This document shows positions 9,725 through 64,000 of a DNA stretch of 64,000 nt, piece after piece. The position numbers and the translations under genes were made by a program. Below the pieces are notes generated by a model that was not told the DNA's origin, did no database searches, and saw only the letters and a list, made by a program, of their open reading frames with translations. This stretch comes from Treponema sp. (GTDB lineage Bacteria; Spirochaetota; Spirochaetia; Treponematales; Treponemataceae), in contig JAILPY010000107.1 in NCBI GenBank assembly GCA_024699235.1, positions 1 through 64,000 of the forward strand. The letters run 5' to 3'. Positions within the stretch are counted from its first letter, which is position 1; each line of letters begins with the position of its first letter.

Positions 9725-11740
9725 TTAGGATTTTTTGCTGGCTATTGCTTTTTTTATTGAATTGGCAAACAGCTGGTTTTGGTCTGTTCTCTCTGGTGCT
9801 GAAAATTCTGGAGTTCCGTCTTGTTCAGAAACCCTGTAAATCTGCATAGGATCAGTTGTGTGTGCAGGACTTGAAGAATTATTAAGCCACCAGTCCAGTA
9901 CAGACATAATGAGTAATGTGTACTTTATTAAGTTTGCATTTGTTGCAGACGTTACATTATCCATTTTTTTTGCTCCCAAAAGCACATCAAGGCGTTTTGA
10001 TACAATATTAGGAATGTCGAAATTATAACGGTTCCATGGATTTATAACTCCTAAAACTGCCTTTCTTGAAGCAATGTTTTCATCAATTCTTCTGCTTAAA
10101 GTTGAGAAAACTGTCTTTATGTAGTCTGTTCTTGCATATATTGGCTTATATTTACTGTCGTTCAGAGGTTTTGTCAGGACGGGCGGATTAAATTTGAAAT
10201 TCGGGAAGAAATAGTACTTTGTTCTCCAAAGCATATTGTTTATAGATTCTTTTCCATATTGCGTATTAGGATAGTCTTTATTTGAATATGTTGAATTTAC
10301 AAACTGACGCAGATAATCTCCGTATTTTTTATCAAACAGATCTTCCCTATAATAACTCCAGTCAGACAGTATTAATGAAATGTCATCAGGAATTTCACTA
10401 AGTACTTCGTCAGCCTTTAAGTTAAATTCTATGTTTCTGCATCCTTGGAATAAGTCTTCAATAATCCTCATAAGGACAACTGCTACTTGAATTCCATTTT
10501 TAGGATTGAGAGCGTTAAATCCATCTGCGAATTTGTATAAAGGCTGAAAGTATGGATACATGTCAGGATGTGTTTCAAGAGTTGAAAATCCTGCTTCAGG
10601 GAATAGCTGTTCAAGAATTTTAAGTCCAGCATCGACTATGTCATCTTTCTGACCTGCAATGTGATGTACTTCATCGGATTTTTTTTCTTCAACTTTTTCT
10701 TCTTCCTTAGGAGTTTTTTTCTTTTCTGGTACAAGAAGGTCAAATTTTGTCAGTCCTACGAATTTCAATATAGGACCCACCTGAGATGTAAAGAATTGCG
10801 GATATTCTGCGTATTCTGTTCCGCACATCCTCATGAGCAAAGGATACATGCCTTTTATAACTTGATCACAGATATACAGCCATTCTGTAATGCCCTGCTT
10901 TGCAAGTTCCTGTATCTTATCTTTGTTTATTTTTGGATAGATTGTTAAATCTGTATAAATTTCTTTAATCAGCTGTGGAATTTTCTGCTCTCCAATATAA
11001 TAAATTGTAAGCAATTCTTTGTATACTTCTGAAACAAAAGAGACTGTCATCGAAGTTGTAAGGTTGTCTGCCCTCTGTTCCAGTTCCAATGCAGCGACCT
11101 TGATGCTTTGCATTGTCCACTTTCCGACTGTACGTAGAAATTTGAATTTTAGTTCTGTATCTGTAGCTATTTTTGCCTTATATGTATCTGGAGAAATCTG
11201 AATGAAAGTCTTTATTGTAGTAATGAAAGCCTGTAAATGATCAACATAATTCTTTACATAAAACTCTCCAAAGTCGCGGGATAGTTTTTTTCTGTTTTTG
11301 GAAGACATTCTGTACAGAAAATTTAAGAGTCCGTAATTAGGTTTCAGGTTGAATTCTGAATCCATCATTAAATTTTCTATTTGCTTTAAGTCTTTTGCAG
11401 CCATAGGCTGAAGGTCTTCATCGTTAGTCATTTTTACGGATGATGAAGAGTTGACAGTATGATTAGCTGAACTTGAGTAAGAGTTTGTTTGCATAGAATT
11501 TGCTGCTGCTGCGCTTTTTGCAGAAACGTCAGATGATGACATTCCTGATGATTTTACTACAGTCCTTCTAGGAGAACGGTGAGGCATATTTTGTGAATTT
11601 ACAGGTTCTGACCTCTCCTGGATTATTTCTCCTCCAAGTTTCTTTTGCATTTCCAGAGCTTCCTGCATGTCAATAGGTCCGATATTCTGTCTGGTATGGT
11701 CGAGAGTACCAGGTTCATAGGTTTGTTTTCTTTCTGCCAT
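9725..11740 (-). CDS. Conserved hypothetical protein, disordered Ser/Ala-rich N-terminus
   Basis: 671-aa ORF; no family recognised. Confidence 0.75.
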   Translation of the reverse strand: MAERKQTYEPGTLDHTRQNIGPIDMQEALEMQKKLGGEIIQERSEPVNSQNMPHRSPRRTVVKSSGMSSSDVSAKSAAAANSMQTNSYSSSANHTVNSSSSVKMTNDEDLQPMAAKDLKQIENLMMDSEFNLKPNYGLLNFLYRMSSKNRKKLSRDFGEFYVKNYVDHLQAFITTIKTFIQISPDTYKAKIATDTELKFKFLRTVGKWTMQSIKVAALELEQRADNLTTSMTVSFVSEVYKELLTIYYIGEQKIPQLIKEIYTDLTIYPKINKDKIQELAKQGITEWLYICDQVIKGMYPLLMRMCGTEYAEYPQFFTSQVGPILKFVGLTKFDLLVPEKKKTPKEEEKVEEKKSDEVHHIAGQKDDIVDAGLKILEQLFPEAGFSTLETHPDMYPYFQPLYKFADGFNALNPKNGIQVAVVLMRIIEDLFQGCRNIEFNLKADEVLSEIPDDISLILSDWSYYREDLFDKKYGDYLRQFVNSTYSNKDYPNTQYGKESINNMLWRTKYYFFPNFKFNPPVLTKPLNDSKYKPIYARTDYIKTVFSTLSRRIDENIASRKAVLGVINPWNRYNFDIPNIVSKRLDVLLGAKKMDNVTSATNANLIKYTLLIMSVLDWWLNNSSSPAHTTDPMQIYRVSEQDGTPEFSAPERTDQNQLFANSIKKAIASKKS

Positions 11741-60151: not shown

Positions 60152-61204
60152 CTATAAAGACTGTTCCGGTCTTACCAGCAAATCGTTGAGTTTTTGACTT
60201 ACGTTTAGTGCCGAAAGAATGGCTGCTGTACGTTTTTGTGCGTTTACGGCAGCCTTTTTATTTTCTGTTGCCCTTCTTACAGCACGTATCAGGAGATTTT
60301 TTGGAGTATGAGTCATGTCAATGAATTCCAAAATTTGGACGGAATATCCGCTTTGCTCCAATATGTCTGCCCGTATGGCATCTGTAACAAGGGCTGAAAA
60401 ACGTTCTTTTATGATCCCGTAACGCATTAAAGATGCAAAAGGATTTTCTTCATTAAACTGTTCTTTTACAGCATCAAGTGACAGGTTTATTTCATGCTGA
60501 CAGCATGGGACTGAAAGGATTGCGGCTGCTTTTCTTGAAACTGCATACTGAAGTGCATAGTCAGTAGCTGTATCGCAGGCATGAAGGGTTATTATTACAT
60601 CTGGATTCGTTTTGTGGCTGAATTTTGCAATGTCTCCGACATAGAAGTGCAGTCCTGTGCACTTTAGTTCTTGAGCGAGCGACTGGCATTCTGCAATGAC
60701 ATCTTCCTTTAAGTCTAGGCCTGTTATTTCTACAGGTATGTTCTTTATGTCATGTAAAAAATAATATACTGCAAAAGTCAGGTAGGATTTTCCGCAGCCA
60801 AAATCAGCAATGTATAGGGGCCTTTCTTTTGTAAACCCCGCATCCCCTGTGCAGATTCTCTGAACGTCTTCTATGATGTCTGAAATGTATTCAAGGAAAC
60901 GGTTTATCTGGCGGAATTTGTCATATTTCTGTGCTATGACTTTTCCTTCCTTTGTCATTACGCCAAGCTTTACAAGGAACGGTACGGGACTGCCTTCCTG
61001 TATTATGTAATTCTTTGTCTTTTTGCTTGAAGAAGAGAATGTATTTTGCATTCCTGCACTTGCAGCCGGCTTTTTAAGTGTCTTTACCTGTCCGTGCCTG
61101 TTTGCCAGAATTGTTATTTCTTCTGTATCCGTTCGTTCTGTTACGTTTTTGAATGTTGTTCCTGCATGATTTTTTAGAAAAGATTCTACCTGTTCAAGCG
61201 TCAT
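60152..61204 (-). CDS. Class I SAM-dependent methyltransferase (C-terminal part of a possibly frameshifted gene)
   Basis: LYIADFGCGKSYLTFAVYYFL, VDVIITLHACDTATDYAL, SVPCCQHEI. Confidence 0.8.
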   Translation of the reverse strand: MTLEQVESFLKNHAGTTFKNVTERTDTEEITILANRHGQVKTLKKPAASAGMQNTFSSSSKKTKNYIIQEGSPVPFLVKLGVMTKEGKVIAQKYDKFRQINRFLEYISDIIEDVQRICTGDAGFTKERPLYIADFGCGKSYLTFAVYYFLHDIKNIPVEITGLDLKEDVIAECQSLAQELKCTGLHFYVGDIAKFSHKTNPDVIITLHACDTATDYALQYAVSRKAAAILSVPCCQHEINLSLDAVKEQFNEENPFASLMRYGIIKERFSALVTDAIRADILEQSGYSVQILEFIDMTHTPKNLLIRAVRRATENKKAAVNAQKRTAAILSALNVSQKLNDLLVRPEQSL

Positions 61205-61383
61205 TTTTTTTGGAATGCCTGCTTTTGCGTAAAGAATTCAGCTTCATAGCATTCTGCCGTCGGTAAAGAAAGCTGCGGCTTGGACAAGTCAATTGACCTG
61301 CGTATGCGTACTTTTATGTAGGGTTTCCCCAAAATGCTTTCACAGTCTTTTGACGGTTTTGAAAAGGTAATGGATAAAATCAT
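61201..61383 (-). CDS. N-terminal fragment of the adjacent methyltransferase (60 aa, -1 frame relation)
   Basis: Ends ...FFTQKQAFQKK* in an A8 run with ATGA overlap to the downstream ORF. Confidence 0.6.
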   Translation of the reverse strand: MILSITFSKPSKDCESILGKPYIKVRIRRSIDLSKPQLSLPTAECYEAEFFTQKQAFQKK

Positions 61384-61435: not shown

Positions 61436-61525
61436 TACTTTGCATCTTGTGTAGTGTACTCTTTGCGACTTGTGTAGTGTACTCTTTGCATCTTGTGTAG
61501 TGTACTCTTTGCATCTTGTGTAGTG
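61436..61525. repeat. 23-bp tandem repeat array, four near-identical copies plus a degenerate fifth
   Basis: TACTCTTTGCATCTTGTGTAGTG: copies 61436-61456 (21 bp), 61457-61479, 61480-61502, 61503-61525; degenerate TACTATGCATGACTTGAAAAGT follows. Confidence 0.9.
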
Positions 61526-61661
61526 TACTATGCATGACTTGAAAAGTTAACTCTCCTTTGAATCGACAGATTGTATGAAAGCAGTGGAAATTCCGGCATT
61601 AAGAAATGACATTTTTGAAACTACTGTACTTCTATAAGAAAAAATGATACACTAGAGTATT

Positions 61662-63798: not shown

Positions 63799-64000
63799 AT
63801 GGGGATTGTTATTGCGGCTTCAGTCATAGCCTTTTTAACAACAGAGATAGACAACCTTGCCGTTATGGTTGTCCTGTTTTGTGCAAGTGACACTTGGAAA
63901 AAAAAAGTTGCAGTTGGACTGGGGCGTTATATAGGACTTTCTTTGCTTATAATGCTAGCGCTCTTCTTTGCTGAAGAACTGTCAAATAAGCATATAGAGG
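63799..64000 (+). CDS. CadD-like cadmium/cation resistance membrane protein, truncated by window end
   Basis: Own translation from ATG 63799: MGIVIAASVIAFLTTEIDNLAVMVVLFCASDTWKKKVAVGLGRYIGLSLLIM..., resembles CadD family N-terminus. Confidence 0.55.
   Translation, partial: MGIVIAASVIAFLTTEIDNLAVMVVLFCASDTWKKKVAVGLGRYIGLSLLIMLALFFAEELSNKHIE

Follow-up and report, generated by a model that had tools for sequence, protein, structure and literature searches.

A run of eight adenines splits a Treponema methyltransferase gene: a probable private frame break, and a better slippage candidate elsewhere in the genome

Does a run of eight adenines inside a Treponema methyltransferase gene mark a place where the reading frame is changed by design, or simply a place where the gene is broken? 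The question is raised by two overlapping open reading frames (ORFs) on the minus strand of the window, by which we mean the whole stretch of 64,000 nucleotides under analysis: an ORF of 60 amino acids at 61201..61383, and an ORF of 350 amino acids at 60152..61204. On that strand, the junction reads ...GCA TTC CAA AAA AAA TGA CGC..., and its -1 frame reads ATG ACG CTT. The frame breaks at the A8 run (61204..61211, minus strand), where the zero frame spells A_AAA_AAA and then TGA; the stop codon of the first ORF and the start codon of the second overlap in the four bases ATGA (61201..61204, minus strand). Re-reading the sequence confirms this layout as the first-pass annotation had described it, from the end of the 60-aa ORF to the overlapping ATG, and also the heptamer, which lies in the zero frame of the 60-aa ORF and has the X_XXY_YYZ form of a -1 frameshift site. 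The source assembly, a draft, comprises 2.81 Mb in 210 contigs; named relatives retrieved by sequence are for the most part Treponema MAGs, and on this basis the organism is assigned to Treponema. A 23-bp unit, AGTACACTACACAAGATGCAAAG, is repeated four times in tandem at 61438-61529 of the window, in the interval that separates the methyltransferase from parA, and further tandem arrays of it occur close to contig ends on C12 and C28.

Alignments show that the two ORFs are the two halves of one ancestral gene, which is found in 141 of the 146 genomes of the genus. The 60-aa ORF corresponds to the first half (strands 1-4) of an N-terminal alpha/beta domain, and is 65% identical over 60 amino acids to the homologue in one of the closest species, G065. 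The 350-aa ORF holds the remainder of that domain and a complete Methyltransf_32 domain (PF13679, residues 95-240, E 9e-39), whose profile score of 133.1 bits, against a gathering cut-off of 27, places it in the family. The first-pass annotation had looked to homologues devoid of the N-terminal segment as evidence against a joined protein: in 28 of the 29 Treponema homologues that were fetched, the whole 60-aa segment is present and shares one frame with the methyltransferase, the exception being G036. The segment is conserved as far as the Bacillota isolates Fusibacter paucivorans and Petrocella sp., and in an alignment with 26 homologues that reaches these isolates, the two window ORFs abut exactly, with zero columns lost. 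The resemblance of the joined ORFs to single-ORF homologues, which the first-pass annotation had proposed, is thus borne out, the motif FTxKQxFHxN included.

A structural model places the break more precisely. When an intact homologue, L031, is modelled with AlphaFold2 (mean pLDDT 88.5), the junction falls between residues 51 and 52, within a strand (47-53) that belongs to a single compact N-terminal domain, residues 1-97; consequently, the break runs through a domain rather than between two modules. The gene is an ordinary, conserved, single-ORF SAM-dependent methyltransferase of the Methyltransf_32 family, about 405 amino acids long, with its own N-terminal alpha/beta domain. A fold search returned generic class I methyltransferases and nothing more specific; a search of PDB sequences with the 350-aa ORF gave zero matches, and a search of NCBIfam assigned no family to the methyltransferase.

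What do the relatives carry at the junction itself? The two closest species, at 76-77% identity, read CAA AAG AAA ATG ACA (G065) and CAA AAG CAT ATG ACA (G036). In all 29 fetched Treponema homologues the junction is read in one frame, and the A8 run, which the first-pass annotation had proposed to look for in related strains, is missing from every one of them. An in-frame ATG ACN codon pair is present in seven relatives (L002, L003, L004, L007, L010, L018 and L028). Since these relatives are intact, the ATGA overlap has not been selected as a stop and start, nor for coupling: on this comparison, it is a conserved Met-Thr codon pair, here ATG ACG, viewed out of frame. The A8 run and the frame break are, as far as the compared sequences go, private to this genome, and the pattern is that of a pseudogene or private frameshift: orthologues are intact as single ORFs, and the lesion is in one lineage only. 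An indel beside a Met-Thr codon pair can thus produce, by chance, a textbook slippery heptamer complete with a neat ATGA overlap, and it is the comparison of homologues that tells chance heptamers from real recoding.

The explanation that we favour, and consider very probable, is that an ordinary methyltransferase gene had its frame broken by a difference of one nucleotide in the length of the A run, private to this genome. Its cause would more probably be a recent mutation by replication slippage in the run; an error of assembly or base-calling at the run is the other candidate, with a smaller but substantial likelihood. The intact state of neighbouring genes that contain A8 or T8 runs tips the balance somewhat towards a real indel. 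In that case, the main product would be a dead peptide of 60 amino acids, and a full-length product would arise only through rare slippage. Some expression of the 350-aa protein would then be likely, given that an ATG stands at the break and that the gene is open from there: reinitiation at ATGA may yield it, and such a protein would have its catalytic fold intact, but only half of the N-terminal domain. Among the alternatives that the first-pass annotation had listed, a recent indel or an error in the A run fit best, and ATGA reinitiation keeps a place as a possible by-product.

The state of the remaining sequence agrees with a young lesion or none. The window copy retains 78 of the 80 highly conserved columns of the family, and shows no acceleration of rate in comparison with G065, from which it follows that the break is recent or not in the organism. 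Continued expression of the gene would also account for the retained residues. The ratio dN/dS against G065 adds little: synonymous sites are near saturation, so it shows only purifying selection on the ancestor. The gene is also lesion-prone: at least three relatives carry private lesions of their own. The copy of G019 (L064, G019:C7) has an independent frameshift in the linker, at about 1385-1389; the copy of G145 has an in-frame TAA within the catalytic part; and in G036 (L059, G036:C130, last 225 bases), at or near a contig end, the start of the gene is replaced by sequence that matches a DDE transposase at its C-terminal end, with a score below the Pfam gathering cut-off. The best reading is that the gene is dispensable.

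How slippery is a run of eight adenines in this genome? Coding A/T runs were compared with synonymous shuffles, following the reasoning of Baranov et al. 2005 (PMC1088944). In the 53 intact genes of the window there are 17 A8/T8 runs, where 13.5 +/- 3.1 would be expected, and 0 runs of length at least 9, where the expectation is about 7; this set leaves out the partial ORF at the end of the window, which runs from 63799, is still open at the last position and holds one A9 (63898-63906). The larger sample consists of 196 ORFs in 277 kb of sampled contigs of the same genome (G000), window included. There, runs of A6-A8 are over-represented with respect to synonymous shuffles (for A8, 47 against 34.3 +/- 5.1 expected), A9 and longer are avoided (6 against 14.6 +/- 3.2, with 0 of 200 shuffles as low), and the threshold at 9 is sharp. 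Selection against coding A runs shows from length 9, not 8, in this genome. A systematic homopolymer error in the assembly is rejected, the other checked genes of the window being intact with their 17 A8/T8 runs, though a single error may have occurred.

These counts bear on the best surviving rival, in which the gene is not dead but leaky: through low-level recoding, by RNA polymerase slipping on A8 or by ribosomes slipping by -1 on A_AAA_AAA, a certain amount of the 410-aa protein would be made. We regard it as unlikely. A_AAA_AAA is a known frameshift motif (PMC3711429; PMC4066793), and in Citrobacter rodentium an interrupted tssM gene is rescued by poly-A slippage at an A11 run (PMC4256274). 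However, A_AAA_AAA is far less shift-prone than A_AAA_AAG in E. coli (PMC5009743); shift-prone heptamers without stimulators reach just 2.1-10 times a background of 0.055% (PMC4066793); and RNA polymerase slippage in E. coli requires at least 7 T, and still more A, with little slippage on short A runs (PMC6260861). Treponema may differ from E. coli in these values. Moreover, the run is not conserved, and runs of its length are not avoided in the genes of this genome. Among the other occurrences of CAAAAAAAATGA in the genome, none joins long ORFs.

A further point in favour of low-level recoding is that the genus appears to exploit runs of A9 and A10 at another locus. A control survey, in which the sampled contigs were scanned for ORF pairs joined at A/T runs, led to a CbiK-NEAT locus elsewhere in the genome (G000:C4, locus L083:8973-10881; relatives L100-L112 and L130-L133). 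There, a CbiK-like lipoprotein ORF (PF06180, E 3e-72) enters an A10 run at 10187-10196 and meets a stop codon 6 nt later. A first NEAT-like domain, with a weak Pfam match (E 0.059), follows the run in a different frame with no start codon ahead of it; an A9 run (10558-10566) comes after it, and beyond this run a second NEAT-like domain lies in the third frame (E 0.0018, below gathering score).

A run of A8-A11 closes the CbiK part at 17 loci in 16 Treponema species, at 61-100% identity. Of these loci, 12 have the downstream part in the -1 frame, 3 in the other shifted frame, and 2 in frame, namely G046, with an A11 run, and G152, where an A8 run lies within an 856-aa CbiK-NEAT-binding-protein fusion; at L111 and L112, similarity to the domains of the window species did not identify the downstream part as NEAT. 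At most junctions, the run is directly followed by a leucine codon, CTA or TTA, that creates a stop in the CbiK frame, and these two codons make up 12.6% of leucine codons in the genes of the locus. In more distant relatives, the downstream gene is separate, apparently with its own signal peptide. Because both out-of-frame directions occur, with varied run lengths, RNA polymerase slippage fits better than -1 ribosomal frameshifting. Random phase variation would leave one third of the loci in frame, and the observed 2 of 17 is weakly below this (P about 0.04 by our own calculation, in which the species are not independent). The junction is a candidate for a conserved transcriptional slippage site, or for phase variation; it looks like recoding, and is a much better slippage candidate than the A8 run of the methyltransferase. 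Within the library searched, no paper combines "transcriptional slippage" and "Treponema", which does not prove novelty. This conserved poly-A junction deserves a study of its own.

By analogy with the CbiK locus, the lineage may use poly-A slippage more widely, with the A8 run as a young site of low efficiency that would give both a full-length enzyme and a reinitiated 350-aa form; this we hold to be quite improbable. It is more doubtful still that the A run mediates reversible phase variation through slipped-strand mispairing. The A8 run does lie early, at codon 60 of about 410, and poly-A runs near the 5' ends of genes can switch them, as in inlA (PMC2831843); however, none of the compared homologues has kept a run of at least eight A at the site, and the product is a methyltransferase of cytoplasmic type, not a surface protein.

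The least probable readings are those in which the arrangement serves a purpose. In one of them, a -1 ribosomal frameshift or a slip in transcription, the lead proposal of the first-pass annotation, is programmed and yields two functional products; a TGA directly after a zero-frame A_AAA_AAA speaks for this reading, and the comparison with relatives largely refutes it. Neither the run nor the break is found in any compared relative, the two closest species included, and the A8 site shows none of the marks of conservation that the CbiK locus shows in the genus. The 55-100 nt downstream, folded without pseudoknots, show no stimulatory structure (z-scores -0.2 to -1.1), and the upstream spacing contains none of the listed Shine-Dalgarno-like elements (GAGG, GGAG, AGGA, GGNGG, AGGKG; PMC4066793). 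Programmed transcriptional slippage would require a conserved run of sufficient length, but this one is private and shorter than the length at which avoidance begins; either mechanism would split a compact domain mid-way. Deliberate translational coupling of two separate genes has the ATGA overlap for it and is just as improbable: the 60-aa product is merely the first half of one domain, ATG ACN is in frame in intact relatives, and the sequence ahead of the ATG of the 350-aa ORF contains no good Shine-Dalgarno sequence.

The preferred reading, a private break in an ordinary gene, can be set beside four known systems. With -1 frameshifting of the dnaX type, which combines A_AAA_AAG, a Shine-Dalgarno element and a stem-loop, the methyltransferase site shares an A-rich heptamer in the correct phase and a stop directly after it; it differs in its last base, A rather than G, in its lack of stimulators and in its lack of conservation. 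With genes rescued by poly-A slippage, such as tssM of C. rodentium and its A11 run, or those of Buchnera and Blochmannia, it shares an interruption at an A run from which a full-length product by slippage is conceivable, but the run is below the avoided length and unconserved, and the product is a predicted one only. Genes with poly-A tracts disrupted by indels, such as Listeria inlA with its 5' poly-A or the Salmonella AT 8+mers, are alike in that a change of one base early in the gene truncates the product, though at the methyltransferase nothing points to repeated or selected switching. Finally, the protein resembles the SAM-dependent methyltransferases of Methyltransf_32 (PF13679), with the full domain in the 350-aa ORF and, in the modelled intact homologue, a class I fold, and it departs from them in one respect: its N-terminal domain is severed in this genome.
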